DNA of 56,412 nucleotides from Olsenella sp. An293. GTDB lineage: Bacteria > Actinomycetota > Coriobacteriia > Coriobacteriales > Atopobiaceae. Location: positions 1 to 56,412 of the forward strand of contig NZ_NFIT01000016.1 of NCBI RefSeq assembly GCF_002159495.1, written 5' to 3'. Shown here piece after piece: positions 3,672-17,897 of this stretch. The notes under the pieces are model-generated. The model had not been told where the DNA came from. It saw only the letters and a list, made by a program, of their open reading frames with translations, and did no database searches. Position 1 is the stretch's first letter; each line of letters opens with the position of its first letter. The translations under genes were made by a program, and so were the position numbers.

Positions 3672-3715
3672 CCTAAAATGAAATAGTCAATTGCAGCTAT
3701 GTGGGCAGGTGTGCC

Positions 3716-4585
3716 ATGAACATCCCTCTGAACAGCATCCTCAACCTCACCGAGGAGCAAATTAAGGGCAGCAAGATTGAGCTGAATCTGTTTGACGGCG
3801 GTACGCACGAGGCCTTCATCGACCGGTGGCTCGAACGCCCAGAGAGTGAGCGGGCTGCGGGGCGCGCGAAGCGCTGCTCGTACTGGGCTTGGTACGGGAA
3901 GAACCGAAGGAACTTCCATGTGGGTGATTGGGTGTTCAGCTTCATGCGGCTCTATCGCCAGGATGAGTGGCTGTTCGTGTCCGCCGCCGAGATAATCGAA
4001 ATGCCGGAGCGGGGCGCGGAGAACGGGTATGCAACGGTGAGGATTCTTGACCAATACGCGCCGCTGTTCGGCCGGCTCATCATCAACCTCCACCGAGGTA
4101 ACAAGTTCTCCCTTTATGTGTTTAACCTCGACTCGTACCTTAACGAGGCGACGGTGAAGGAGATCCTGCCTGCGCTCTACAGCGGCGACACGTTTAGCGG
4201 TTACGACCGCGTGCACCTGCCCTACGCCAAGCTCGACCGGATATTCAGGCGCGAGATCATGCCCTCGTACTACGACGCCCTGGAGAGCGTGACGGGGGTC
4301 TACTGCCTCACTGACACCAGGACCGGAAAGCTCTACATAGGCTCCGCCACCGGCGAGGGCGGCGTGGCGGCGCGCTGGGGCAATTATCTGGACTCCAAGC
4401 ACGGAGGCAACAAGAAGCTGCGTGAGCTCTATGATCGCGAGGGCGAGGACTACTTCCGCGAGAACTTCGAGTTCACGCTGCTCGAGTACTTCGGCATGAG
4501 CTACGACCCGCAAAAGGTGCTGGAACGGGAGCAGTGGTGGAAGGACTGCCTCGACACGCGTGCCCACGGATACAACGATAACTAG
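3716..4585 (+). CDS. GIY-YIG nuclease family protein
   Basis: 289 residues starting at the ATG (MNIPLN). The C-terminal third carries a GIY-YIG domain: GVYCLTD (194-200), YIGS (207-210), a conserved-type Arg at 220 in AARWGNYL, and a downstream Glu in VLEREQWW. The first ~190 residues resemble no domain I recognise. Free-standing GIY-YIG genes inside phage late operons are commonly homing-type nucleases that spread into neighbouring genes. Here the gene splits terminase from portal and is flanked by ~80-90 bp imperfect direct repeats. Its codon use is slightly less GC-rich than that of the neighbours. Nuclease activity is inferred from the motif; the target is unknown. Confidence 0.8.
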   Translation: MNIPLNSILNLTEEQIKGSKIELNLFDGGTHEAFIDRWLERPESERAAGRAKRCSYWAWYGKNRRNFHVGDWVFSFMRLYRQDEWLFVSAAEIIEMPERGAENGYATVRILDQYAPLFGRLIINLHRGNKFSLYVFNLDSYLNEATVKEILPALYSGDTFSGYDRVHLPYAKLDRIFRREIMPSYYDALESVTGVYCLTDTRTGKLYIGSATGEGGVAARWGNYLDSKHGGNKKLRELYDREGEDYFRENFEFTLLEYFGMSYDPQKVLEREQWWKDCLDTRAHGYNDN

Positions 4586-4794: not shown

Positions 4795-6354
4795 GTGCAG
4801 GGGCTGGATGACGAGTACTGGGTGCCGGAGCATGTGAGGGCGTGGCTGAGGGGGCTGGGGTTCTCGCTGCCGCTGGAGGCGATGGAGCCGCACATCCGGG
4901 CGTGGGACCGGTGGATGCGGGCGCTCGGGGACTTCTACGACTATAGGGACACGGACGGCGTGGGGCGCGTGTACGAGGTGCATAGGCGCTCGATCCACCC
5001 GGCGATGCGGGTGTGCCGGGAGTGGGGGTCTCTTCTCCTCAATGACAAGACGCAGGTGGCGTGCTCCGAGCAGGCGTGCACGGACTGGCTCGCGGCGTGG
5101 ATGGCGCGCACGGGCTTTCTCGCCTCGGCGCAGGAGTGCGTGGTGCGCGCGTTCGGCCTGGGGACGGGCGCGTGGGCTTTGTGGGTCGATGCGGGGTCTC
5201 GAGAGGTGCGCGCGAGGCGCTACGACGCGCGGATGGTGGTGCCGCTCACGTGGGACGAGGAGGGCGTCACCGAGTGCGCGTTCGTGACGCGGGCGTTCTG
5301 GAGGGGACGTGCCATCGACCAGGTGCAGCTGCACCTGAAGGGTGCTGCCGACGCGTTCTTCTCGCCAAGCGAATCATCCGGAGGGGCTTCGGCGGCGGGT
5401 CCTTCTCGCCTGACTGACGATGAAAGCGAGGGCACGTATCGGATCGTCACGGCGTGCTTCGACCGGGACGGCAACCGCGTCGAGCCGGAGGGCGTGTGCC
5501 CGGCGTACGACACGGGCTCGCCGTGGCCGACGTTCGCCATCGTGAGGCCCGCCGTCGACAACACGCGCGTGGACATGTCGCCCTACGGGCAGTCGGTGTT
5601 CGCGGACGCGGTGGACGCGATCCAGGCGGTCGACCTCTGCTACGACGCCATGATGAGCGAGATCGACAACGGGAAGATGCGCGTGTTCCTCTCGGACGTG
5701 ATGTTCGACACGGAGCGCGACGGGAAGGGCGGGCGCGTCTCCATCCCCTTCGGGCGGCAGGACTGCACGGTGTTCAGGAAGGTCATGAGCACGGAGGACA
5801 CGATCCACGAGTTCGCGCCGACCCTGCGCACGGAGGCGCAGGCGCGGGCGTTCAGGGTCGCGCTGCAGACGCTCGGCGACCTCTGCGGGTTCGGCATCAA
5901 CTACTTCGACCTCGAGAACGTGGGGTACGTGAAGACGGCCACGGAGGTGTCGGCGGACAACTCGGCGCTGATGCGCAACATCAGGAGACACGAGCGCGCG
6001 CTCGAGGGCGCGATCTCGGGCATCTGCCGCGCGCTGCTCGCTGCCGAGCGCCGCCTGGGCGCGGAGCTGCCCGACGAGGGGCTCGTGCGCGTGACGTTCG
6101 ACGACAGCATCATCACGGACACGACGGCCGAGAAGCGCCAGGACATGGACGAGGTGGCCGCCGGTCTCATGGAGGGCTGGGAGTACCGCGCCAAGTGGTA
6201 CGGCGAGGACGAGGCGACGGCGAGGCGCAGAGGGGCTGTTGCCGAATCCGGTGCGAGCGACGGCGGGTCGGGGCACGTTGACGCAGCCCAGGCAGGGGTG
6301 CCGGGGCGCGTGCGCCGCCGCGAGGAGCAGACGACGGCCGTGCCGGCGCGATGA
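4795..6354 (+). CDS. Portal protein
   Basis: 519 residues from a GTG with a strong GGGAGGTGAG site. Portal hallmarks include the N-terminal helical region with EWGSLLLND, a central core with SPYGQSVFADAVDAI, and the FGINYFDLENVGYVKTATEVSADNS segment typical of SPP1/PBSX-type portals. Residues ~186-210 are a Ser/Gly/Ala-rich insert whose DNA contains TTCTTCTCGCC and a near copy (5356-5411), so the dispersed motif seems to have entered the gene in frame. After YRAKWYGEDEATAR the C-terminus turns into an Arg/Gly/Ala-rich tail, as if the original end and the following minor-head gene were lost when the defence island inserted. Confidence 0.85.
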   Translation: MQGLDDEYWVPEHVRAWLRGLGFSLPLEAMEPHIRAWDRWMRALGDFYDYRDTDGVGRVYEVHRRSIHPAMRVCREWGSLLLNDKTQVACSEQACTDWLAAWMARTGFLASAQECVVRAFGLGTGAWALWVDAGSREVRARRYDARMVVPLTWDEEGVTECAFVTRAFWRGRAIDQVQLHLKGAADAFFSPSESSGGASAAGPSRLTDDESEGTYRIVTACFDRDGNRVEPEGVCPAYDTGSPWPTFAIVRPAVDNTRVDMSPYGQSVFADAVDAIQAVDLCYDAMMSEIDNGKMRVFLSDVMFDTERDGKGGRVSIPFGRQDCTVFRKVMSTEDTIHEFAPTLRTEAQARAFRVALQTLGDLCGFGINYFDLENVGYVKTATEVSADNSALMRNIRRHERALEGAISGICRALLAAERRLGAELPDEGLVRVTFDDSIITDTTAEKRQDMDEVAAGLMEGWEYRAKWYGEDEATARRRGAVAESGASDGGSGHVDAAQAGVPGRVRRREEQTTAVPAR

Positions 6355-6371
6355 GAGGGTGTCCAAGGTGA

Positions 6372-6419
6372 GGGGCGCTGACGCTCCGACGCACGCGGGC
6401 GTGGGAGCGGCCGCGCCCC
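6372..6419 (+). other. GC-rich three-tier hairpin just after the portal gene
   Basis: Nested stems: GGGGCGC (6372-6378) with GCGCCCC (6413-6419), CGCTCC (6382-6387) with GGAGCG (6404-6409), and CACG (6392-6395) with CGTG (6400-6403) around a CGGG loop. It starts 18 nt after the portal stop. There is no T-run, so it could be a protective 3' structure or the first domain of a structured RNA. Confidence 0.6.
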
Positions 6420-6526
6420 GACCCTTGGGGTGAGAGCTGCGGCGCCGGCGCGGGCGGCGGCTGCGACCCGGTGCACGCGCCCCGGCTCCCCGGACTGGGC
6501 GGACGGGGTCGTCTCGGGTCAGGAAG

Positions 6527-6557
6527 GCCCCGATGCCGCCGCAGGCGGCTTCGGGGC
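6527..6557 (+). other. Strong GC hairpin with three-base loop
   Basis: CCCCGA (6528-6533) pairs with TCGGGG (6551-6556) and GCCGCC (6535-6540) with GGCGGC (6544-6549) around a GCA loop, with one T·T mismatch. It is the second of a hairpin series in the noncoding block. Confidence 0.6.
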
Positions 6558-6559
6558 TG

Positions 6560-6603
6560 TCGCGAGCTCCGGTTCCCTCGGGGATCCGGAGCGCCGCTCG
6601 CGA
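6560..6603 (+). other. GC hairpin with asymmetric bulge
   Basis: TCGCGAGC (6560-6567) pairs with GCTCGCGA (6596-6603); TCCGG (6568-6572) pairs with CCGGA (6586-6590), with a five-base bulge at 6591-6595. It is separated from the preceding hairpin by only two bases. Confidence 0.6.
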
Positions 6604-6687
6604 GCGCGTGGCGGCCGTGCGGAAGCCCGGGGGGCGACGTCGCCGCGGAGTCGCGCTCGCCGCTCCTCGTGAGGGCCGCAAGGGCAT

Positions 6688-7102
6688 CCACACCCCACCA
6701 CCACCCGCGAACGAGGGCGAGAGGGCAGCAGCCCATCTGCCGTGGCGGAGTGCGCGCCGCCGCGAGGAACCGACCCGACCTGCGCACGTCAAACTCCCAT
6801 CAGGCCATGCCCAGAGCGTAGGCTGTGTATGCGCAGCGCCGCGAGGGACAGACAGCGTAGCCGGAGTGTGCGACCGCCGCGAAGGCCAGACGGCGCAGCC
6901 GGCTGACCTGAGCCGGGAGCAACACGTAGGCGGAGCTGGCTGGCCCGAGCCGCGGAGCAATACACAGCCGGAGCGGCGGGCATGGCCGTGAGTGGCGCTC
7001 TCCGCGCAGGGCGGGGCGGTTTCCGAGCCGTGCGCGCAACGGAGCGGAGGCAGGTGGGCTGCGGACGACCCTCGACGGGCAGCGGGTGGTGGTGGGGTGT
7101 GG
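6688..7102 (+). repeat. Giant quasi-palindrome (~415 bp)
   Basis: The outer ends are perfect 21-bp inverted repeats (6688-6708 and 7082-7102). Going inward, nested complementary blocks continue: 6728-6741 with 7049-7062, GGCCATGCCC 6803-6812 with 6978-6987, GGCTGTGTAT 6821-6830 with 6960-6969, and CCGGCT 6899-6904 with AGCCGG 6911-6916 around the loop GACCTG. The left arm carries an extra ~30 nt from an internal imperfect duplication (CCGCGA..GG.CAGAC.GCG.AGCCGG, twice). A transcript would fold into one long imperfect duplex. No convincing gene lies inside. It stands 122 bp upstream of the defence island's first gene. Its role is unknown. Confidence 0.85.
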
Positions 7103-7139
7103 CACCTCGTAGCTGCACCGCTCTTCTCGTCGTGTTCTC

Positions 7140-7224
7140 AATATAGGCTACGCATTGTAAAATAAGGGTTTACAGGCAATTGCAATGTACTGGTATCACT
7201 CTCATTTACTTCGAAGGAGCCTAT
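7140..7224 (+). promoter_or_regulatory. Probable promoter region of the defence island
   Basis: AT-rich segment between the GC-rich structured block and the DUF262 start, with TTGTAAAATAAGGG, TTTACA and TTGCAATG patches, and the AAGGAG ribosome site at 7214-7219. Individual -35/-10 boxes cannot be assigned with confidence. Confidence 0.4.
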
Positions 7225-9048
7225 ATGGCTATAGCGGCGCCCAAATCATATGACACTTCGCTCGGCGAGCTCCTCGAAGGGGTTGGCAAGGGGACGCATC
7301 AGCTCCCGGAGTTCCAGCGCAGCTGGACGTGGGATGACGGGCGCATCAGGAACATCATCGCGAGCTTGACGCAGGGGTATCCGATGGGCGCGCTCATGAG
7401 GCTCGAGTGCGGAGGCGGCGAGGTGAGGCTGAAATACCGTGCCTTCGAGGGAACACATGGCATTTCCCGCGAGCCCGACTACCTCGTCCTCGACGGCCAG
7501 CAGCGACTCACCTCGCTGTACTGCTCGCTTTTTGGGAAAGACCCCGTCAGCACCTCGAACGAGCGCGGCCAGAAGCTCAGCCGCTTCTACTACCTCGATA
7601 TGCGCAAATGCCTCGATCCAGAGGAAGACCGCGAGGATGCGATTGTCTCCATATCGGATAAGCGCGTCGTCACCGAGGACATCGGCCGCAAGATCGTCCT
7701 CGACCTTACGAGCCGTCAGCGCGAGATCGAGGAGCTCATGTTTCCCGCTAACCTCGTGTTCGACTCCCAGGGGCGAGACGACTGGTTCACGGAGTTCATC
7801 GAGCATTATGGTCTCAAGTCCGAAGAGTACGCCCTCTGGAAGCACTTCAAGGAGGATGTCCTCAGGACGATGGAGGACTACAAGATTCCGGTCATCACCT
7901 TGGACAAGACGACGCCCCGCGAGGCGGTCTGCAAGGTCTTCGAGAACGTGAACACGGGGGGCGTCTCTCTCACCGTGTTCGAGCTCGTGACGGCGGCCTT
8001 CGCCACTTACGACTTCGACCTGCGCGGCAACTGGAACGAGGTCGTGCGCCCGCGCATCTGCGCCGAGGGCAAGGACATCAGAACGGATCTCATGCAGGGC
8101 GTCGACGAGACGACGTTTTTGACCTCCATGACGCTCTACACGACGTATCTCGCAAAGCGCGCCGGCACCAAGGGCAGTACGAGCTGCAAGAAGAAGGACG
8201 TTCTGGCGCTGCGCTACGAGGACTATGTCGCCAACCTGGACGCGCTGTTGGACGGGTTCGACATGGCGCGCGATTTGCTCATCGGCGAGTGCGTCTTCCG
8301 CATGCGAGACCTCCCGTACACCACGCAGCTCATCCCGCTCGCAGCTACCTGCGCCTATATCGGGCGCAAGACGTTCGAGAGGCAGCCCGTAAAGGCAGTC
8401 CTCCGGCGGTGGCTGTGGTGCGGGATCTTCGGGGAGATGTACGGCGGCGCCAACGAGACGCGATACGCCAACGACATCGAGGACCTGGCGGCGGCAATCG
8501 AGGGCGAGGATTCCGCGATGCGCACCGTGAACGCCGCCTACTTCCAGTCCACGCGCCTGCTGGGCCTCCAGACCAGAAACAGCGCTGCCTACAAGGGGGT
8601 CATGGCCCTCGTGTTCCGTGAGAACTGCCTCGACTTCGTCGACGGCGCTCCGATGACCATGGTGAAGTCGATGGAGACCCCGCCGGACATCCACCACATC
8701 TTCCCGCGCGCGTACTGCGAGAGGACGGGGCTCGAACGGACGAAGTGGAACTCCATCGTGAACAAGACCCCGCTCATCGCGCGCACGAACCGGGAGATCG
8801 GAGGCGTTGCGCCCTCGAAGTACCTCCCGAAAATCATGAAGGACGAGCAGGTCGACGGTGACGAGCTCCGCAGGCGCGTGGAGTCCCACCTCGTGGACTA
8901 CGACGCTCTTGCCGTGGATGATTTCGATACGTTCTTTCTGGATCGCGCGAAGAGGCTCCTCGACGTCATCGAGCAGGCCATGGGCAAGGAGGTGCCCGAC
9001 AGGGCGTCAGATGAGACGGTTGCAGCGTTCGGGAGCGTCTTGTGCTGA
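7225..9048 (+). CDS. DUF262 / HNH nuclease, GmrSD-like restriction protein
   Basis: 607 residues; the ATG (MAIAAPK) follows AAGGAG at 5 nt. The N-terminal DUF262 domain shows LPEFQRSWTWDD (residues 27-38) and VLDGQQRLTSLY (88-99), the nucleotide-binding/hydrolysis signature of GmrS-type proteins. The C-terminus carries an HNH-type DIHHIFPR motif near residues 489-496 followed by WNSIVNKTPLIARTNREIGG, as in DUF1524-like GmrD domains. Proteins of this class restrict modified phage DNA in an NTP-dependent way, or act as solitary defence genes. It precedes a type III restriction system with a ~100-bp gap, so it may be an independent module. Assignment to anti-phage defence is by family; the specificity is unknown. 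Confidence 0.82.
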   Translation: MAIAAPKSYDTSLGELLEGVGKGTHQLPEFQRSWTWDDGRIRNIIASLTQGYPMGALMRLECGGGEVRLKYRAFEGTHGISREPDYLVLDGQQRLTSLYCSLFGKDPVSTSNERGQKLSRFYYLDMRKCLDPEEDREDAIVSISDKRVVTEDIGRKIVLDLTSRQREIEELMFPANLVFDSQGRDDWFTEFIEHYGLKSEEYALWKHFKEDVLRTMEDYKIPVITLDKTTPREAVCKVFENVNTGGVSLTVFELVTAAFATYDFDLRGNWNEVVRPRICAEGKDIRTDLMQGVDETTFLTSMTLYTTYLAKRAGTKGSTSCKKKDVLALRYEDYVANLDALLDGFDMARDLLIGECVFRMRDLPYTTQLIPLAATCAYIGRKTFERQPVKAVLRRWLWCGIFGEMYGGANETRYANDIEDLAAAIEGEDSAMRTVNAAYFQSTRLLGLQTRNSAAYKGVMALVFRENCLDFVDGAPMTMVKSMETPPDIHHIFPRAYCERTGLERTKWNSIVNKTPLIARTNREIGGVAPSKYLPKIMKDEQVDGDELRRRVESHLVDYDALAVDDFDTFFLDRAKRLLDVIEQAMGKEVPDRASDETVAAFGSVLC

Positions 9049-9151
9049 CGTTTGGATTCGACGCCATATCTGACGCTTTCGAGCACTTTGCAGCAAATTA
9101 CAACCAGGCGCACCAAGTTGAGCGCGCCGATAGAAGATAGGCGGACAATAC

Positions 9152-10909
9152 ATGCCGACTCTCAACTGGATGGGTAAGGAGAAGGTGGTCAACCACCACC
9201 GCGACGTCCCGTATCGCGTGCTCGAGCGCGTGCCCGAGAAGGGCGTGCTGGACAGCCACGGCTCGGACTGCGGGAACATGGTCATCCACGGCGACAACCT
9301 CGAGGCGCTGAAGGCCCTGCTGCCCGAGTACGAGGGCAGGGTCGACTGCGTCTACATCGACCCGCCGTACAACACCGGCAACGAGGGCTGGGTCTACAAC
9401 GACAACGTCAACGACCCCAGGATCAGGAAGTGGCTCGGGCAGGTCGTGGGCAAGGAGGGCGAGGACTTCAGCCGCCACGACAAGTGGCTGTGCATGATGT
9501 ACCCGAGGCTCCAGCTGCTGCGCAAGCTGCTCGCGCCGACGGGAGCGATCTTCATCAGCATAGATGACAACGAGCTGTTCAATCTGAAGCTCATCTGCGA
9601 CGAGATCTTCAGCCCGTCATGCTTCGTTGCGGACGTATCTTGGCAGCGCACGCTCACTAAGCGCAATGACTCTAAAGGCGTGCCAGCTGAGACGGAGCAT
9701 CTGCTCCTGTATTCAAAGACTTCGGATTGGGTTCCCAACAGACTGAAGCGCACGGAGGGCATGAACAGCGGCTATTCAAGCCCGGATGGAGACTCCCGCC
9801 CGTGGACTTCCGTCACATGCTCAGCGCCGGGAGCTTCGACACATCAAGGTATGGTGTATGCCATACAGCACCCGATAACTGGTGGGTGGATGTATCCGCC
9901 AGTGGGACGTTGCTGGAGTCTTGGTCAAGATCGCATGCTCGCGGAGATGAACAAGTGGGCTCCATACGAGCTGAGAAACCTTAACGATGCGGACAAGCGA
10001 CGTGAGGTGTGCGCTGGCGCGGAAGTAGATGATTCGCTCTGTGGAATCGCGCTCGTGGATGATTCGACGGAGGCGCTGGAGAGGGCGAAAGCGCGCTATG
10101 ACCGAGGCGCACGCGGTGAGCAACCCTGGCCGACGTTCTTCTTTACCTCCAAGGGCAAAGGCGGCATGCGCACCAAGAAGTACCTGGAAGAGAGCTCAGG
10201 AAGGGTCGCGACTAATTTTTGGCCTGCGGGAGAAGTCGGAACCACGGATGGGGCGAAACGACTTCTTGCGAGAATCTTTGAGGGATCGGCACCTTTCGAT
10301 ACCCCGAAGCCTCCCGAGCTGATAGAACGATGCATCCAGCTCGCCTGTGGTGACGACGCCCTCGTGCTCGACTCCTTCGCAGGGTCCGGTACCACGGCAC
10401 ACGCGGTCATAAAGCTCAACAGAGAGGACGGCGGCTCTCGACGCTTCATCCTTGCCGAACTGGATGACTACGCCGACACCGTTACCGCCGAGCGTGTTCG
10501 TCGCGTCATATCGGGCTACGGCGAGGGGAACGGCGCCGTCGGGGGCATCGACTCCGGCTTCTCGTACTACGAGCTCGGCCCCGCGCTGTTCCGCGAGGAC
10601 GGCGCGATCGACCCCGCCGTCACGCACGCCGACCTCACCCGTTACGTCTGGGCGACCGAGACCCGCGCGCCCTACGAGGACCTCACGGACGAGCACCCCT
10701 ACCTCCTCGGCGAGCACGCCCAGGCGGTCTACTACCTCACCTGGGAGCCCGGGGAGGAGACGACGCTCACCTACGACCTCCTGCGGGGTCTGCCGCGCAA
10801 GGGGTCGCCGACCGTGATCTTCGCCGACCGGTGCGCCATCGCGCCCGAGCGCCTGGACGAGATGGGCGTCGTCTTCAAGCGCGTGCCCGACCAGATAGCG
10901 AGGATCTAG
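9152..10909 (+). CDS. mod: Type III restriction-modification methyltransferase (Mod)
   Basis: 585 residues. It is an amino-methyltransferase of the beta class: the catalytic DPPYNTG motif (residues ~70-76) precedes the AdoMet-binding FAGSGTT motif (~407-413). The region between, about residues 170-330, is variable and probably the target-recognition domain; its DNA is noticeably less GC-rich than the rest, as expected for a swapped recognition domain. Mod methylates one strand of an asymmetric site and guides Res. Its stop is three bases before the res start, so the two are co-translated. Length is near the family norm of ~600. Confidence 0.93.
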   Translation: MPTLNWMGKEKVVNHHRDVPYRVLERVPEKGVLDSHGSDCGNMVIHGDNLEALKALLPEYEGRVDCVYIDPPYNTGNEGWVYNDNVNDPRIRKWLGQVVGKEGEDFSRHDKWLCMMYPRLQLLRKLLAPTGAIFISIDDNELFNLKLICDEIFSPSCFVADVSWQRTLTKRNDSKGVPAETEHLLLYSKTSDWVPNRLKRTEGMNSGYSSPDGDSRPWTSVTCSAPGASTHQGMVYAIQHPITGGWMYPPVGRCWSLGQDRMLAEMNKWAPYELRNLNDADKRREVCAGAEVDDSLCGIALVDDSTEALERAKARYDRGARGEQPWPTFFFTSKGKGGMRTKKYLEESSGRVATNFWPAGEVGTTDGAKRLLARIFEGSAPFDTPKPPELIERCIQLACGDDALVLDSFAGSGTTAHAVIKLNREDGGSRRFILAELDDYADTVTAERVRRVISGYGEGNGAVGGIDSGFSYYELGPALFREDGAIDPAVTHADLTRYVWATETRAPYEDLTDEHPYLLGEHAQAVYYLTWEPGEETTLTYDLLRGLPRKGSPTVIFADRCAIAPERLDEMGVVFKRVPDQIARI

Positions 10910-10911
10910 CC

Positions 10912-13524
10912 ATGGAGCTGAAGCAGTACCAGAGGGACGTCCTCAGGGAGGTCGGCCGCTTCGCGAGGACGTACGCGATGACCAGGGACGCGTCGACGGC
11001 CTATGCTGACTTCATGAAAGCCGTTGGCCTCATGCCCGGGCAGGGCGGGGTCGAGTGCTACCGCGACGACCTCGGCGGCGCGCCGAAGGTGTGCGTCAAG
11101 GTGCCCACGGGCGGCGGCAAGACCTTCATCGGCGCGAGCGCCGTGCGCGTGCTGACCGAGGCGCTGCCCTCGGCCGCCAACGTTGTGGTGTGGCTCGTGC
11201 CGAGGCGCGAGATCCTGTCGCAGACGCTCCGGAACTTCCGCAACCCGGAGCACTTCCTGCGCACGGCGCTCGACCGCGACTTCGGCGGGCGCGTGGAGGT
11301 GCTCGACAAGGAGGACGGCCTTCGCGGCCGCTCGTTCACCGCGTCGACCGTCGGCGAGCAGCTCACGCTCTTCGTGCTCTCCTACGACTCCTTCAAGAAC
11401 AAGGACGGGCGGCGCGCCTACGCTGAGAACTCGGCGCTCGCCGGGCTCACCGCCCACCAGCGTGACGCCGGCACCGCCGTGGACGTTGAGGGCGCGGACG
11501 ACACGGCGCTCATCACCGCGCTCGCGGGCACGAACCCGATCGTGATCGTGGACGAGAGCCACCACGCGCGCTCGAAGCTCTCGCTCGACATGCTGCGGAA
11601 CCTGAACCCGCGCTTCGTGCTGGAGCTCACGGCGACGCCGGCCAGGGGCGCGAACGTAATCGCGCAGGCGACCGCGCGCCAGCTCAAGCGCGAGGAGATG
11701 GTGAAGCTCCCTGTGGTGGTGTATCGCCGCCCGGACAAGCGGACGACCATCGCCGATGCCGTCACGCTCCAGCGCAGGCTCGAGGCGATAGCCGAGCAGG
11801 ACGAGAAGAGGACCGGGCGCTACATCCGCCCCATCGTGCTCTTCCAGGCGGAGAGGCGCGGGGCCGAGGGCGCAGAGACCTACCAGAGGCTCAAGGAGAA
11901 GCTCGTCGAGGGCGGCATCCCCGAGGAGCAGATAGCCGTGCGGACGGGCGACGTGGACGAGATCGGCGGGGCCGACCTCATGAGCCGCGAGTGCCCGATA
12001 CGCTTCATCATCACCGTGGAGGCGCTCGCCGAGGGCTGGGACTGCCCGTTCGCCTACGTGCTCGCCACAGTCGCCAACAAGAGCTCGCAGGTGAGCGTGG
12101 AGCAGATCGTCGGCCGCGTGCTGAGGCAGCCCCACGCGGCTCGCGCGGGGGCGCGCAGCCTCAACATCGCCTACGTGCTCACGGCGTCCGCGGACTTCGA
12201 CGCGACCCTCACGCAGGTGGTCGACGGCCTCAACGGCGTGGGCTTCTCGCGCGAGGACGTGGAGACCGCCGGGACGGCGCCCGCGGCGCCCGAGCGGCAG
12301 GACCAGATCGACTTCCCGGACGAGCCGGCAGGCGGCCCCGAGGGCGGCGAGGGGGACGACCTCGACCTCGACGGGCTCGACCTGACCGTGCCCGACGGCT
12401 CTGCCGCCGGTACCGGCTCCGCGTCCGTGGACGACATCATCGGCACCTCCGAGCACGTCGAGGAGCGCTTCGAGGAGGAGGCCGGCTCGGATGGCGCCGG
12501 GACCCTGCTCGGCGGCCTGGGAGGGGGAACCAACGTGTACCATATGCGCGAGGCGGTCGCCGACTCGGCGAGGGAACTGACCATTCCGCAGTTCATAATC
12601 CGCGTGGACGGTGGCCTGTTCACCGACGACGAGACGTGGAAACCGCTCGACCGCGAGGACCTGCTCGCCGACTTCAAGCTGTCCAAATATGGCATCGGCG
12701 AGGTGAAGATCGACCCCGGCACGTTCTCCGAGGCGCGCGAGGTGGATCTCGCCTCCGATTCGGACGAGTACCGCATCCGCTGGCTCGAGGACGACGTCAG
12801 GAAGAACATGGCGATGCTCTTCGCCAACATGTCCGACGAGGGCAAGCGCGAGAGCCTGAAGGCGCTCGTCCTCCAGGCGATGTCTTCTCAGTTCAAGAAC
12901 ACCTTCGGGAGTGCCCAGCTCACGGGCTACATCGCCCGCGTGGTGGACGACATGGACTCGCCCGTCGTGGACGCGTGCCTCCACAGCGTGGGCGGCGTCG
13001 CGCGCGCCGTCGCGGACGCCGTGCGCGGGCTCGCCGACGACTTCTGTGAGGACCGCTTCGGAAAGCTCCTCTCGCGGGGTGACGTGCGGCTCGAGCCGGC
13101 GTACCGGTTCCCCGAGTCGTTCGTGCAGGCGACCCCGATGACCAGCTACGACGGGGCGCTCTACGAGGCGGAGGATGGGCGCGTCGACGGGCTGGAGCGA
13201 AAGATGGTGGACCTGCTCGCGAACAACCGGCGCGTGAGGTGGTGGCACCGCGTGGTGGAGCGCAAGCCCGGGGAGTTCAGCATCAACGGGTTCGTCAACC
13301 ACTACCCGGACTTCCTCGCTTTGCGCGACGACGGCGTCCTCATGGTCATCGAGACGAAGGGCGAGCACCTGGGCGACGACGCCAGGCGCAAACTGAGCCT
13401 GGGAACGAGGTGGGCCGACATGGCCGGCATCGGATTCCGGTACTTCATGGTGTTCGAGCGCGAGGCGCCGGACGCCGACAATGCGTTCACGCTGGCGGAG
13501 TTCGGCAGCGAGATTTTGGGGTGA
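10912..13524 (+). CDS. res: Type III restriction endonuclease subunit (Res)
   Basis: 870 residues from the ATG two bases after the mod stop. A superfamily 2 helicase core shows KVPTGGGKTF (Walker A, ~63-72), DESHH (motif II, ~214-218) and QIVGRVLRQPH (motif VI, ~399). The C-terminal nuclease has a PD-(D/E)xK arrangement: PDFLALRDDG near 799 and VIETKG near 812-817. An acidic, Asp/Gly-rich linker occupies ~455-520. ATP-driven translocation along DNA and cleavage when two unmodified sites meet is the family mechanism. The gene appears intact. Confidence 0.92.
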   Translation: MELKQYQRDVLREVGRFARTYAMTRDASTAYADFMKAVGLMPGQGGVECYRDDLGGAPKVCVKVPTGGGKTFIGASAVRVLTEALPSAANVVVWLVPRREILSQTLRNFRNPEHFLRTALDRDFGGRVEVLDKEDGLRGRSFTASTVGEQLTLFVLSYDSFKNKDGRRAYAENSALAGLTAHQRDAGTAVDVEGADDTALITALAGTNPIVIVDESHHARSKLSLDMLRNLNPRFVLELTATPARGANVIAQATARQLKREEMVKLPVVVYRRPDKRTTIADAVTLQRRLEAIAEQDEKRTGRYIRPIVLFQAERRGAEGAETYQRLKEKLVEGGIPEEQIAVRTGDVDEIGGADLMSRECPIRFIITVEALAEGWDCPFAYVLATVANKSSQVSVEQIVGRVLRQPHAARAGARSLNIAYVLTASADFDATLTQVVDGLNGVGFSREDVETAGTAPAAPERQDQIDFPDEPAGGPEGGEGDDLDLDGLDLTVPDGSAAGTGSASVDDIIGTSEHVEERFEEEAGSDGAGTLLGGLGGGTNVYHMREAVADSARELTIPQFIIRVDGGLFTDDETWKPLDREDLLADFKLSKYGIGEVKIDPGTFSEAREVDLASDSDEYRIRWLEDDVRKNMAMLFANMSDEGKRESLKALVLQAMSSQFKNTFGSAQLTGYIARVVDDMDSPVVDACLHSVGGVARAVADAVRGLADDFCEDRFGKLLSRGDVRLEPAYRFPESFVQATPMTSYDGALYEAEDGRVDGLERKMVDLLANNRRVRWWHRVVERKPGEFSINGFVNHYPDFLALRDDGVLMVIETKGEHLGDDARRKLSLGTRWADMAGIGFRYFMVFEREAPDADNAFTLAEFGSEILG

Positions 13525-13654
13525 TAGAGCGGCAATGTCTCTGGAATACACTCAATGGGAACGCATCCGCTGTACCCTGAGATCGATAAAATCGAAACCA
13601 TTACTCCCTAGAGGGGGCATTGTCGAACCAATAGGATGCAAGGAGAGCAATTAG

Positions 13655-15943
13655 ATGCTCAATAGCCTGATTCGGATTGATCTCCATATCCATTCGAAAG
13701 CCAGTCAGTACAAGGATAAAGGCGTTGACTTGAGTGAATGCGACGCCGAGCATGTCGATGTGCTGCTTGACAAGCTTGCTAAGGGAGAGAATCCCATCGA
13801 CATGTTTTCCGTTACTGACCACAACAGGTTTGATGCGGCGTTATACGAGACTTTTTACAGTCGTATCTACGAACGAAACTTAGGCATACAGCTGCTGTCT
13901 GGCGTCGAGTTCGATGTCGAGCTGCAAGAAGGAAAACCTGCCGCCCATATCATCACGATCTTCAACTCGAAAGATGCTTGCGACCGCCGGATGATTCAGG
14001 AGACTATCGAGAAAAACGGATTGATTGAGACCGAGTCCGGCTTCTACTCTTTAGATGGATTCGAATCTCTACTCAGGCATATAGGGCTTAGTGCAATTCT
14101 CATCGTGCATCAGCATTCTGGTTTCGGGGGCAACCAGCGCAAACGCTCGGCAGGAGCGGCGAGCGATGATGCGATCGGGTTTTACCAATATGGCTTCTTC
14201 GATGCGCTTGAATACAACAACCGGAAAGTGCAAGGCATCCTCCGAGGCGAGCTTGCAGATCTGCAGCTCCCAGCACGCATGGTTGTTGGCAGCGACTGCC
14301 ACGAGTGGGATTGCTATCCAAGACATGATCGCAATCAGGCTATTCCAGATGCTTATTATGCCGAAATCCGTGCCCTCCCCACATTCTGCGGACTCCTCAT
14401 GGCGTTGACCTCTCCCGAAACGAGGATTGGGCGGCGGGACTACGAATGGAAAAGCGCCTACTGCCACGAATTCGAGCTTTGCGGAAAGAGGATTCCGCTG
14501 AGCCCCGGTCTGAATGTGCTTATTGGAGAAAACGGATCTGGCAAGTCATCCCTGCTTGACCTCCTCTGTGACAAGCAGGGTAGAAAAGCTCACGTAAAGG
14601 GCATCGACAAGGAGTATGGCTTTTCCTGCGCGCGTAAACCCGTTTCCCCTGTCTATGTTCAGCAGGGGCAACTTCAGGAAAGCTACGGAAAAGGCACCAT
14701 CTTTGACTCCGCTCTTTTTGAGGAGCCTAGCAATACCAGCTTTGAGAGCTCGGTGCGTTCCTATGCTGGAGGAATTAAGAGCCTCATCGCTGAAAGCATA
14801 TCCAGAAATAGCCTTCGGAATAAAGCGCGGGAAACCTCGTTTCTCCCTGTTCAAGAGGAAGAAACCTTCAGGTTCACCGTTACGTATACAGAGGATTTTG
14901 CAAACGAAGGCAACCAATGGTCGCCACGGGCGGATAGGCTCCGGACCATCAACTCTCTTCTGAGCGAGGAGATCGCTCGTAAAGAGTACACGGAAGAAGA
15001 GGTCGAAAAGCTCAAGAAGGCCCACGCCCTCATCGAAGAGGTTCGGGCGTCAGTTGCCGGTAAAAGCGATGAGCGCATGATGACGAATGGTGTGAAGAGC
15101 ATTATTCTCAGAGCATTCAAAAAATACGAGCTTGATGTCGAGTCCAAGAGTGACGATCAAGACAGAAAGAGCGCTGCCTATCGGAAAGATAAAGCGACAT
15201 TTGTGGAAACAGTGCTCGGCCTTGCCCGTGCCGAACTTCAAGATTCTCCAACGCTGCCAAGTTCAAGCGTTCCGACAGGCTCCGGTGCTACTAGAAATCA
15301 GAAAAACGGATTCTCCTTCGTTAGGAAGACAGCGTACTCCGACTTGGATGATTATGCTGACGACTTTCTCCAGTGCTTCAACACTCAGTATCGGTCAATC
15401 GACAAGTTGCTTGAGATTCGTACGCGCGAAGAAGCCGCAAGCGCAATCCCTGGCGGAAAGCCGGATTCTTGGGAATCTGATTTCGATAACCTGACTAATA
15501 AGTTTATAAAGGCGCAGTGTATCACTGCTGACACGATTTTCGACGGCGAGAACAAAGCAACGGGCAATACGCTGGGAGAGCGCGCCCTTACCTACTACAA
15601 GTATTTGAGCTATGGCCCTTCAAAAGCTGACGTGTTTATCGCCGACCAGCCGGAAGACAACATCTCAAATCAGCGCATCGGCGACGAGCTCATAGAATAT
15701 CTGGGAGATCTTCGTAGGCGTTCTCAAATCATCATCGTCACACACAGTCCACTGCTCGTTGTCAATCTCGACGCTGACAACGTAATTGTTCTAAGAAGGG
15801 ACAAGGAAGGAAGCGAACGGGTCGTGTCCGGCTGTCTCGAATCTGAAGATGACGGTTCAGTGCTCAGCGAAGTTGCCTCCATCCTCGATGGAGGCAAAGA
15901 AGCGATTCAAAGGAGGCTGGCAGCTTATGATGCGCTCAATTAA
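13655..15943 (+). CDS. PHP-domain / SMC-like ATPase, Ppl-like defence protein
   Basis: 762 residues; the ATG follows AAGGAG. The N-terminus is a PHP phosphoesterase: DLHIHS (H11, H13), TDHN near 54, GVEFD, VHQHSG and GSDCHEWD supply metal ligands. From ~280 an ABC/SMC-type ATPase follows: GENGSGKSS (~290-298), a coiled middle region, an LGERALTY signature (~639), Walker B DVFIADQPEDN (~656-666) and the VTHSP histidine loop (~695). A PHP plus SMC-ATPase single-gene architecture is known as Ppl in anti-phage screens. GC content is clearly lower than in neighbouring genes, indicating separate acquisition. The next gene overlaps its 3' end, making a two-gene unit. Confidence 0.78.
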   Translation: MLNSLIRIDLHIHSKASQYKDKGVDLSECDAEHVDVLLDKLAKGENPIDMFSVTDHNRFDAALYETFYSRIYERNLGIQLLSGVEFDVELQEGKPAAHIITIFNSKDACDRRMIQETIEKNGLIETESGFYSLDGFESLLRHIGLSAILIVHQHSGFGGNQRKRSAGAASDDAIGFYQYGFFDALEYNNRKVQGILRGELADLQLPARMVVGSDCHEWDCYPRHDRNQAIPDAYYAEIRALPTFCGLLMALTSPETRIGRRDYEWKSAYCHEFELCGKRIPLSPGLNVLIGENGSGKSSLLDLLCDKQGRKAHVKGIDKEYGFSCARKPVSPVYVQQGQLQESYGKGTIFDSALFEEPSNTSFESSVRSYAGGIKSLIAESISRNSLRNKARETSFLPVQEEETFRFTVTYTEDFANEGNQWSPRADRLRTINSLLSEEIARKEYTEEEVEKLKKAHALIEEVRASVAGKSDERMMTNGVKSIILRAFKKYELDVESKSDDQDRKSAAYRKDKATFVETVLGLARAELQDSPTLPSSSVPTGSGATRNQKNGFSFVRKTAYSDLDDYADDFLQCFNTQYRSIDKLLEIRTREEAASAIPGGKPDSWESDFDNLTNKFIKAQCITADTIFDGENKATGNTLGERALTYYKYLSYGPSKADVFIADQPEDNISNQRIGDELIEYLGDLRRRSQIIIVTHSPLLVVNLDADNVIVLRRDKEGSERVVSGCLESEDDGSVLSEVASILDGGKEAIQRRLAAYDALN

Positions 15944-16253
15944 GCTCAACGGAACAGAAGCCGGTGTCGATTTAATTGTGGATGGCAGCGTCGCCGACAC
16001 CTTCAGCAGAGGTGAGGCAATCAGTGCGCTCAGTTTTTTCAACGCGCTCGATTACCATGCAGGTGATGTGTACAAACTTGAAGATGGCGCTAGAGGGCCT
16101 GTTCCTAAAGGTTCATTCGACCCGCTTGAAGGGCTCGTAAAGGAGATAATCGAGGGCATCAACGCCATTGCCACAGAAGAGGTTCCTGTAAATGGCGATT
16201 CGAACGCCTCTTGCGAGAGCAATTACATGGCAGATGAAGATATTCCCTTCTAA
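15927..16253 (+). CDS. Small acidic partner with an SSB-like C-terminal tip
   Basis: 108 residues. Two adjacent ATGs are possible; the first is used, with AAGGAGG at 15910-15916. It overlaps the ATPase gene by 17 bp, so translation is probably coupled. No domain is recognised; the N-terminal half looks beta-rich (IKLNGTEAGVDLIVDGSV) and the rest acidic. The last residues, ADEDIPF, match the acidic-hydrophobic C-terminal tip of bacterial SSB (DDDIPF), which docks RecQ, ExoI, PriA, RecO and others. There is no OB-fold visible. A decoy or recruiter of SSB-binding repair proteins is inferred. It is followed by a strong terminator. Confidence 0.75.
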   Translation: MMRSIKLNGTEAGVDLIVDGSVADTFSRGEAISALSFFNALDYHAGDVYKLEDGARGPVPKGSFDPLEGLVKEIIEGINAIATEEVPVNGDSNASCESNYMADEDIPF

Positions 16254-16286
16254 CAGCTTACTCAGCTTTCTTGTGACACGCCCATA

Positions 16287-16319
16287 GCCTGTACCCATCG
16301 TTTGGGTGCGGGCTTTTTT
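16287..16319 (+). terminator. Rho-independent terminator closing the defence island
   Basis: GCCTGTACCCA pairs with TGGGTGCGGGC (two G·U pairs) and is followed by TTTTTT at 16314-16319. It separates the island from the scaffold gene. Confidence 0.85.
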
Positions 16320-16349
16320 CTTTGCCCGCCTTACTGGAAGGACGGGCAG

Positions 16350-16877
16350 ATGGATGGCTTGCAGGACGAGACGAGGCTCGAGGAGCAGGGCGCGGCGCAG
16401 GAGCCGCAGGGCGCGCCGGCGCAGGTGAGCGGCAGCGATGGTGCCGCCGCGACCCCCAGGGCCGACGACGGCGCTGCCCAGGCCCGCGCGGACTACGAGG
16501 CGGCGCTCGCCGAGCGCGACGAACGTATCGCGGAGCTGGAGGGCGAGATCGCCGATGCCGCGAAGACCGCCGAGGGCGCGGAGAAGCTGCGTGCCGAGAT
16601 GGACGAGCTGCGCCGGCGCGGCGACGAGGAGCGGGTCGGATTCGAGCTCCAGCTCGCGGGGGCGCGCAACGTGAAGGCCGCCCGCGCGCTGCTCGGTGAC
16701 TACGACAACGACGTCGAGAAGCTCAAGGCGGCCGAGCCGTGGCTGTTCGGCTCGAGCGTTGCCGCGACCGCGCAGACGGGGGCGACGGGGCTGCCGAGCG
16801 CGGGCGCGGCGTCGGACGAGGGCGCGACGGTCAAGCGCTGGCGGAGGATCGCCGGCATCGAGGGAGACGAGGAGTAA
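16350..16877 (+). CDS. Phage scaffolding protein
   Basis: 175 residues; the ATG follows GGAAGGACGGG. Low-complexity acidic N-terminus, a coiled-coil from about residue 45 to 100 (ERDERIAELEGEIADAAK), and a basic C-terminus (VKRWRRIAG) that would contact the capsid. It sits directly before the major capsid gene with a 3-bp gap. This matches GP20-type scaffold proteins that guide prohead assembly. The upstream neighbour in related phages would be a minor head protein, which is absent here. Confidence 0.78.
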   Translation: MDGLQDETRLEEQGAAQEPQGAPAQVSGSDGAAATPRADDGAAQARADYEAALAERDERIAELEGEIADAAKTAEGAEKLRAEMDELRRRGDEERVGFELQLAGARNVKAARALLGDYDNDVEKLKAAEPWLFGSSVAATAQTGATGLPSAGAASDEGATVKRWRRIAGIEGDEE

Positions 16878-16880
16878 CCG

Positions 16881-17897
16881 ATGGCCAACAGCATCGCCTA
16901 CACCAGGAACTACACGGCCGTCCTGGACGAGGTCTACAAGAGGGCCGCGTGCTCGACGTGCCTGAACTCGCCGCGCCGCATGGCGCGCGCGGGGCGCAAC
17001 GCCAAGGAGATCATGGTCCCGAAGATCGAGGTGACGGGGCTCGGCGACTACACGCGCAACGTGGGCTACAAGACCGGCTCGATCACCTACGAGTTCGAGA
17101 CCAAGACGTTCAACTACGACCGCGGCATCAGGCTGCTGGCCGACGTCATGGACGTGGAGGAGGCCGGGGTCCTCGACTGCTTCGTGGCGGCGGGCTCCGA
17201 GCTCCAGCGCACGCAGGTGGCGCCGGAGGCCGACGCCTTCACGTTCTCCGAGATCGCGGGGCACGAGGGCGTGACGCCCGCCGTCGAGGACTTCGCCGAC
17301 GCGGAGGCCGAGGACGTGCTGGCTTCGCTCCGCGCCGCGACGAACGCGATGGACGAGGCGGAGGTGACCACCGGGAGCCGCATCCTCTTCATCACGCCGA
17401 CCTTGAAGGGCGTGCTGGACGACTTCAGCCTGGCGAACCCGGCGCGCTCCAACCGCGTGCTCGAGCGCTTCAGCCGCGTCGTGGAGGTGCCGCAGACGCG
17501 CTTCTACACGGCGATCGCGCTGAACTCCGGCGAGGAGGACCAGTTCGGGTACTCCCGCGCCGAGGGGACCTACCAGCTCACCGAGGACACCTCCGTGGTC
17601 TCGGGCAAGACCTACTACACGAAGAGCGGCGAGCAGTACACGCCCGTCTCGAGCCCGGCCTCGGGCAGCCTCTCGAGCTACTACGAGCTCGTGGGCGCGG
17701 GCGCTCCGATCAACTTCATGGTCGTGGAGCGCTCGGCGGTGATCAAGTTCGACAAGCACGTGGCCTCGAGGGTCTTCTCGCCCGACGAGCTGGAGAACCT
17801 GGACAGCTACATGATGAAGTACCGCAAGTACGGCATCGTGGAGCTGCTGGACAACAAGCTGGACGGCGTGCACGTCTCCTGCGCGCCGCTGGCGTGA
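16881..17897 (+). CDS. Major capsid protein
   Basis: 338 residues starting MANSIAYTRNYTAVLDEVY, a usual start for this capsid family, placed right after scaffold. A cysteine-containing segment (CSTCLNSPRR) lies near the N-terminus. The stretch at roughly residues 227-277 (YQLTEDTSVVSGKTYYTKSG onward, Ser/Pro/Tyr-rich) looks like an inserted surface domain, since flanking sequence reads as continuous capsid core. Its stop overlaps the GTG start of the next gene. HK97-like fold is inferred from context. Confidence 0.82.
   Translation: MANSIAYTRNYTAVLDEVYKRAACSTCLNSPRRMARAGRNAKEIMVPKIEVTGLGDYTRNVGYKTGSITYEFETKTFNYDRGIRLLADVMDVEEAGVLDCFVAAGSELQRTQVAPEADAFTFSEIAGHEGVTPAVEDFADAEAEDVLASLRAATNAMDEAEVTTGSRILFITPTLKGVLDDFSLANPARSNRVLERFSRVVEVPQTRFYTAIALNSGEEDQFGYSRAEGTYQLTEDTSVVSGKTYYTKSGEQYTPVSSPASGSLSSYYELVGAGAPINFMVVERSAVIKFDKHVASRVFSPDELENLDSYMMKYRKYGIVELLDNKLDGVHVSCAPLA

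Follow-up and report, generated by a model that had tools for sequence, protein, structure and literature searches.

Why should a small protein encoded behind a nuclease-like ATPase end in the same residues as the single-stranded DNA-binding protein (SSB) of its host? The question is raised by contig NZ_NFIT01000016.1 of Olsenella sp. An293, whose stretch of 56,412 nucleotides (nt) is called here the window. Two overlapping genes on its forward strand encode a PHP-SMC ATPase and a small partner protein, and our results partly support the view that the partner is an SSB-tip-bearing subunit of ATPases of the PHP-SMC (TrlF/Ppl-like) kind, present in some lineages only. The features of the pair are the following:

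13655..15943, + strand: PHP-SMC ATPase, 762 amino acids (aa); PHP motifs DLHIHS, TDHN and GSDCH, Walker A GENGSGKS, Walker B DQPED
15909..15916, + strand: AAAGGAGG, ribosome-binding-type site within the 3' end of the ATPase gene, 10 nt before the first ATG
15927..15943, + strand: stretch shared by the ATPase and partner genes, 17 nt, from the positions of the open reading frames (ORFs)
15927..16253, + strand: small partner gene, 108 aa, ending ADEDIPF then TAA, from translation, family alignment and structural model
16233..16250, + strand: codons of the terminal DEDIPF, the six residues with which the SSB of this genome also ends (VYDEDIPF)
16286..16314, + strand: terminator-like hairpin with a T run, directly 3' of the partner gene

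The partner ends like the SSB of its host

The genome of the window has a single SSB match, on contig C12, and the last six residues of this SSB, DEDIPF, are also the last six of the partner. The first-pass annotation had noted an SSB-type tip and no OB-fold. The tip was borne out by the identity of the two ends, and the partner matched no OB-fold family, or any other family, in Pfam. We collected 26 distinct partners, window included, mostly from Actinomycetota and Bacillota (loci carry L numbers). Seven of them carry an acidic [IL]PF tip: DEDIPF in the window, EEDIPF in L047, DDAIPF in L050, SEDIPF in L063, DDEIPF in L030, WGDIPF in L049 and DEELPF in L059. Six of the seven belong to a Coriobacteriia clade of seven members. 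Two further partners, L054 and L064, which have near-identical ATPases, terminate in SECPF.

The SSBs of these genomes end in DEDIPF (window, L047, L049, L063), DQDIPF (L050), DGELPF (L059), DDEVPF (L054) and NNDIPF (L064). The third-last residue of partner and SSB from the same genome was equal in six of the eight PF-ending cases compared (there are nine such cases, L030 lying outside the comparison). Among the strict tips the agreement was complete (6/6), with I in the window, L047, L049, L050 and L063, and L in L059. The tip persists while the linker before it varies: partners only 28-31% identical to that of the window end in DDAIPF, SEDIPF, DDEIPF and WGDIPF, and between the window and L047 the I and P codons of the tip show silent differences only.

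Such ends are rare among the sequences that we gathered. Of 1380 distinct ORFs of at least 80 aa (six frames, most not genes), 32 end in PF, and these comprise 21 SSBs, nine partners, one unidentified protein of 211 aa and one unlikely reading frame. The set held all loci gathered to that point and was thus enriched by selection for SSBs and partners, so that it shows specificity and gives no genome-wide rate. Taken together, these data confirm that the SSB-type tip of the partner is real and more than a chance likeness. No concealed tips were found in alternative frames of the scanned loci. The 211-aa protein (L100, 1872-2507) lies directly after an SSB-family gene in the genome of L059 and ends in EDEGELPF, which makes it a candidate tip carrier.

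Searched at E up to 1, Pfam (its SSB domain profile PF00436 included), PADLOC and NCBIfam gave no match to the partner itself, and its best match in PHROGs reached only E 0.2. The reading as a degenerate SSB was set aside on this absent family match and on the intact SSB elsewhere in the genome. The structural model (mean predicted local distance difference test, pLDDT, 75.5; predicted template modelling score, pTM, 0.56) has 10-residue blocks at pLDDT 79-87 up to residue 80, and predicts a beta-beta-beta-alpha-beta-alpha core over residues 2-82, approximately. Residues 85-97, with pLDDT under 50, form a low-confidence linker ahead of the tip. Foldseek gave nothing under 0.001, and thus no clear structural relative, a result that excludes no fold, the OB-fold included; a chain of the Sigma B operon (E 0.042) was judged a chance hit. 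The best VIA-align result, type III CoaA, was a middling match (Z 5.3, root-mean-square deviation 2.7, 70 residues aligned). The core may resemble the first half of an RNase H-like fold.

A coupled small frame behind each complete ATPase end read

The first-pass annotation had also proposed a two-gene module, and the survey of relatives extended this proposal: an overlapping small frame followed every complete ATPase 3' end that was read, in all 26 distinct cases, although two are weaker (in L037 the frame is open but has no clear ATG, and in L065 the ATPase frame is interrupted). In the window, the overlap is 14 nt if the partner starts at its second ATG, at 15930. The site AAAGGAGG sits within the last ATPase codons, and a purine-rich stretch like it precedes the partner start in all 13 family members inspected; the same stretch encodes conserved ATPase residues. 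The terminator scan found four hairpins in the region, against 3.0 expected in shuffled sequences.

In counting the partners, the identical L053, L055, L056 and L057 were taken once, as were L045 and L067, while the close L034-L036 were counted singly. The counts leave aside L006, L017 and L018 (weak matches that are other genes or frames), weak rows from outside Coriobacteriia, L062 (ATPase cut by the contig end), and L068 and L069 (ATPase frame not found).

The partner search gave matches in six of the 140 genomes of the family, five of them real, including the window, and the partner profile gave matches in 12 of the 395 genomes of the order, 10 of them real. The ATPase search in the 396 genomes of the class gave 17 genomes at 1e-20, and downstream genes were read in 13 of these (all except G208, G110, G293 and G351). 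A scan of genome_contigs gave 23 loci, from Actinomycetota and Bacillota apart from one in a record labelled Alphaproteobacteria. In the genomes sampled outside Coriobacteriia, the partner profile found the seed genome alone (1/391, 1/130 and 1/67), with weak matches inside longer frames in seven more genomes of the 391-genome set and three more of the 130-genome set. Relatives of the small protein were absent from viral_contigs, phages and plasmids. ATPase relatives were absent from phages and plasmids at 1e-15, and viral_contigs contained two partial ATPase matches (L070 and L071). The deeper TrlF relatives L037, L038, L045/L067 and L046 likewise carry a coupled small frame, which raises the possibility that this group of ATPases has such a subunit in general, so far without annotation.

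The ATPase is closer to TrlF than to Ppl

The key PHP and Walker A/B residues are invariant or nearly so across the 16-row ATPase alignment (A5). The ATPase part was clear in Pfam, whereas the PHP match had an E of just 0.18. In the structural model (mean pLDDT 78.5), long helices span residues 361-528, approximately. Foldseek matched the model to SMC, RecN and Rad50 heads and to the PHP domain of RNase AM, with RNase AM 7ug9 (E 1.6e-5) and Smc 5xei (E 6.1e-8) among the matches; the fold of the model suggests a PHP-domain nuclease activity. PHP motifs and a P-loop ATPase are thus united in one protein, by motifs and by fold, a combination shared with TrlF.

The nearest NCBIfam profile was TrlF (NF045780; E 4e-51, 174.8 bits, below its cut-off of 350), followed by Spaf_1101 (NF045781; 82.5 bits, below its cut-off of 475) and Ppl (NF042955; 55 bits, below its cut-off of 1000). 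All three profiles were matched at 1e-5 by all 16 members of A5. Judged by these profile scores, the ATPase is a sister of the TrlF and Spaf_1101 families and distant from Ppl. Its identity with Ppl was ruled out by the score, and the earlier label "Ppl-like" proved loose: it holds for the joint PHP and ATPase architecture, but TrlF is the nearest family and Ppl comes third.

The pair lies in a prophage cargo region next to restriction genes

The ATPase-partner pair sits in a prophage, between the portal and the scaffold/capsid genes, after a GmrSD_N gene and the mod and res genes of a type III restriction-modification (R-M) system:

3701-4585: gene resembling GIY-YIG homing endonucleases, close to the portal gene (phrog_314, E 2e-11)
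4795..6354, + strand: gene for the phage portal, bounding the cargo region on the left (phrog_533, E 3.4e-82)
7180..9048, + strand: GmrSD_N (DUF262-type) gene, upstream of the R-M genes (PF03235, E 1.6e-27)
9152..10909, + strand: type III DNA methyltransferase, Mod (MTase_III, E 1.1e-174)
10831..13524, + strand: type III restriction subunit, Res (ResIII, E 1.6e-16; REase_III); likely start 10906
16302..17897, + strand: phage scaffold-like and major head genes, right edge of the cargo region (phrog_194, E 2.4e-5; phrog_422, E 1.3e-68); likely scaffold start 16350, major head protein 16881-17897

The Res gene ends 130 nt ahead of the ATPase gene. The profile windows inside the pair have 50-53% G+C, and the others between 4000 and 20000 have 58-77%, save one of 55% that straddles the left edge. 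With this lower G+C content, the pair looks separately acquired.

The gap between portal and scaffold (window 6355-16349) looks like a cargo hotspot of a group of prophages. A relative of the head protein is present in 57 of the 140 genomes of the family. Among 16 relatives fetched (L128-L143, up to 13 kb upstream), a portal gene was within reach in nine, with 7.8-11.4 kb of differing cargo before the scaffold gene. The cargo of L129, L131 and L134 includes type III R-M, with res 87-95% identical to that of the window. The genome of the window (G000) has four head-protein matches, three of them nearly full-length, on contigs C8 (the window), C4 (L134) and C23 (L141); these three sit in related prophages, each with a different cargo between portal and scaffold. 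Among the 12 loci listed, some cargo frames resemble, by eye, cytosine methylases or glycosyltransferases.

R-M genes were found upstream of the ATPase in eight of the 21 lineages with upstream ORFs listed, the window being one:

L023 (=L047), 5 nt away, and L022 (=L049): type III R-M
L020 (=L063) and L021 (=L030): ResIII with T5orf172; Eco57I-type methylase in L020
L052: ResIII with T5orf172, about 0.9 kb away
L053/L055/L056: DpnII 13 nt away (scanned in L055) and adenine methylase (scanned in L056)
L135 8670-11334: prophage of another species with a distant mod-res (tblastn), a TrlF-like ATPase and, overlapping it, a small gene without the tip, at the same cargo position

In the remaining 13 lineages no R-M genes were seen, some flanks being short and Pfam covering part of those ORFs. 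The upstream genes of L035, L036, L045, L046, L057, L065 and L066 fall outside this survey, and the contig of L051 starts about 700 nt before the ATPase. The R-M proteins of the window and L047 are 23-38% identical over parts, despite ATPases 74% identical, so that the pair seems to travel apart from the R-M genes. Other neighbours include a Helicase_C protein and a relaxase at L054, and an integrase at L050.

A proposed mechanism and its alternatives

The reading that we favour, with somewhat less than even confidence, is a prophage-borne and probably anti-phage module of two genes, in which a small adaptor with a host-like SSB tip docks the nuclease on SSB-interacting proteins. From the observed gene order, overlap, tip, SSB match and intact motifs we infer complex formation, docking, nuclease activity and defence. 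The large component would be a predicted PHP-domain nuclease fused to an SMC/Rad50-type ATPase. The partner, probably made by coupled translation, would be a dedicated adaptor of this ATPase: its folded core would bind the ATPase, while its flexible tail would, in the tipped clade, reproduce the host SSB tip. That tip would dock in the pocket by which SSB-interacting proteins grip SSB. The targets would be RecO and PriA, both present in the genome of the window, with RecG, RecJ and RecQ among the further candidates. Docking would bring the nuclease to sites at which repair and replication proteins assemble, on DNA that is single-stranded or broken, for example phage DNA cut by the adjoining restriction system.

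According to excerpts of PMC10164576, SSB-interacting proteins hold the tip Phe in a hydrophobic pocket, with a basic lip for its carboxylate and a basic ridge for the Asp residues, and binding is much weakened without the Phe. Since the partner copies the host tip, it is best read as an adaptor to these proteins. Ppl is reported, in the available part of a review (PMC12904381), to depend on 3' ends and on reduced nucleotide pools; by analogy, cut and resected DNA would be a plausible target for the window enzyme too. A more specific version is put forward more tentatively: a restriction-associated PHP-SMC nuclease would be led to damaged phage DNA by the repair proteins of the cell, through short-linear-motif mimicry of an SSB tip that follows the host (I for the Coriobacteriia, L for a single Ruminococcaceae genome).

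Several observations weigh against the docking model. The first-pass annotation had named homologues that lack the tip in a conserved gene order as evidence against its reading, and the tip as a defining feature of the system is not supported: 17 of the 26 partners are such homologues (L048, L034, L035, L036, L051, L052, L053, L058, L060, L061, L065, L066, L038, L046, L067, L037 and L135). One of these, L048, falls among the tipped Coriobacteriia, but its branch is long and its placement unsure. Docking therefore cannot be required for the core function, and the tip is a clade-specific add-on, real though not essential. The genomes of some tip-less partners have ordinary SSB tips (DDDIPF in L051 and L058, DDELPF in L060), so that a tip on SSB does not by itself call for one on the partner. 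The SECPF partners of L054 and L064 share only PF with their host SSBs (EVPF and DIPF). R-M neighbours are also found at the tip-less L052, L053 and L135, thus tip and R-M are not tied. Four ATPase columns tracked the tip, none of them basic, an unconvincing result (shuffles gave a mean of 0.3 and a maximum of 6). Finally, a 252-aa protein, TIR-like by eye (L129 2308-3066, - strand, and L131), ends in NDWYIPF and fits a loose acidic-xPF pattern; it is either a further tip carrier or a chance case, a reminder that such ends can arise otherwise. This protein lies in cargo after res, the position held by the ATPase pair in the window.

The phylogenetic pattern is informative in the other direction, within limits. 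In the ATPase tree (21 rows), the nine rows with PF ends form two supported groups (6/7 Coriobacteriia and 3/3 Bacillota). PF ends require three changes, two of them forced by well-supported branches, and a number as low was seen in 2 of 500 label shuffles, although this clustering partly reflects relatedness, and L038, L034 and L048 have long branches. The tip was thus gained or lost more than once, as a modular docking motif would be.

Among the alternatives, the one that survives best, though we consider it unlikely, is that the tip fills an SSB-tip pocket on the ATPase itself, as plug and sensor, and holds the enzyme away from host DNA until abundant SSB-coated (phage) single-stranded DNA appears, whose SSB tips compete it out and release the nuclease. 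A match with the host SSB would be expected of a competitor, overlapping genes suit an inhibitor made together with its enzyme, and several defence systems respond to phage SSBs (excerpts of PMC13381803 and PMC12904381). Against this idea stand the majority of partners without tips and the lack of basic ATPase residues tracking the tip. Somewhat less probable still is an acidic tail serving an ATPase groove, DNA mimicry or stability, its likeness to SSB being convergent composition. Some tip-less partners do have acidic tails (e.g., L058, DEDEEDDLLNEE), and the NDWYIPF protein is unrelated, but acidity alone explains poorly the exact xPF end, the match with the host SSB and the near-specificity to SSBs. 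We find it improbable that the partner is a soluble decoy that floods the SSB-tip pockets of host or phage repair and replication proteins, hampering the phage independently of the ATPase. A small protein with a free tip and no match to an OB-fold family would fit, but the partner is coupled to an ATPase in every case read, its core is kept without the tip, and amounts rivalling SSB would be needed, since the affinity of the SSB tip is low micromolar (PMC10164576, in part). Least probable is a module for prophage maintenance or host fitness rather than defence: the relative TrlF belongs to a temperature-restriction operon in Photorhabdus, though no trlF mutants were found there (PMC7554251, in part), and the R-M neighbours in eight of the 21 lineages and the variable prophage cargo position argue against it.

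Comparison with known systems

In the literature searched (with bioRxiv and most subscription papers outside it), we found no description of an SSB-tip partner of Ppl or TrlF, and the portion of PMC13092281 covered mentions neither SSB nor the anti-phage protein Ppl. The TrlF-like PHP-SMC group would gain a small subunit without a match in Pfam, PADLOC or NCBIfam, and the coexistence of tip-bearing and tip-less relatives provides natural controls.

TrlF, of the Photorhabdus TRL operon, is the closest profile, yet that operon has trlG (Alba_2, HATPase_c_4) and a 79-aa trlR upstream of trlF (PMC7554251, in part), and no trlG-type (Alba_2/HATPase) neighbour was present among the five window ORFs scanned with Pfam. 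Spaf_1101 resembles A5 members best over the C-terminal ATPase part. Ppl shares the PHP and ATPase architecture, and is described in the part of the review at hand (PMC12904381) as a single-gene system, a 3'-5' exonuclease on single-stranded DNA released by nucleotide depletion and 3' ends; the window system has two genes. Compared with bacterial SSBs, the partner has the same DEDIPF end and a variable linker before it, a layout that resembles SSB tails (PMC10164576, in part), but it has no SSB family match, and its core is predicted as beta-beta-beta-alpha-beta-alpha.

Hna, Hachiman, Nhi and Retron-Eco8 link defence to SSB biology, as would the window system (PMC13381803 and PMC12904381, both in part). 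These systems watch phage SSBs and are triggered by them, whereas the window system itself carries an SSB-like tip. Our results suggest that a putative defence enzyme borrows the DNA-repair docking code of the cell, and wearing the tip of the host SSB would, if true, put the SSB interaction hub to another use.

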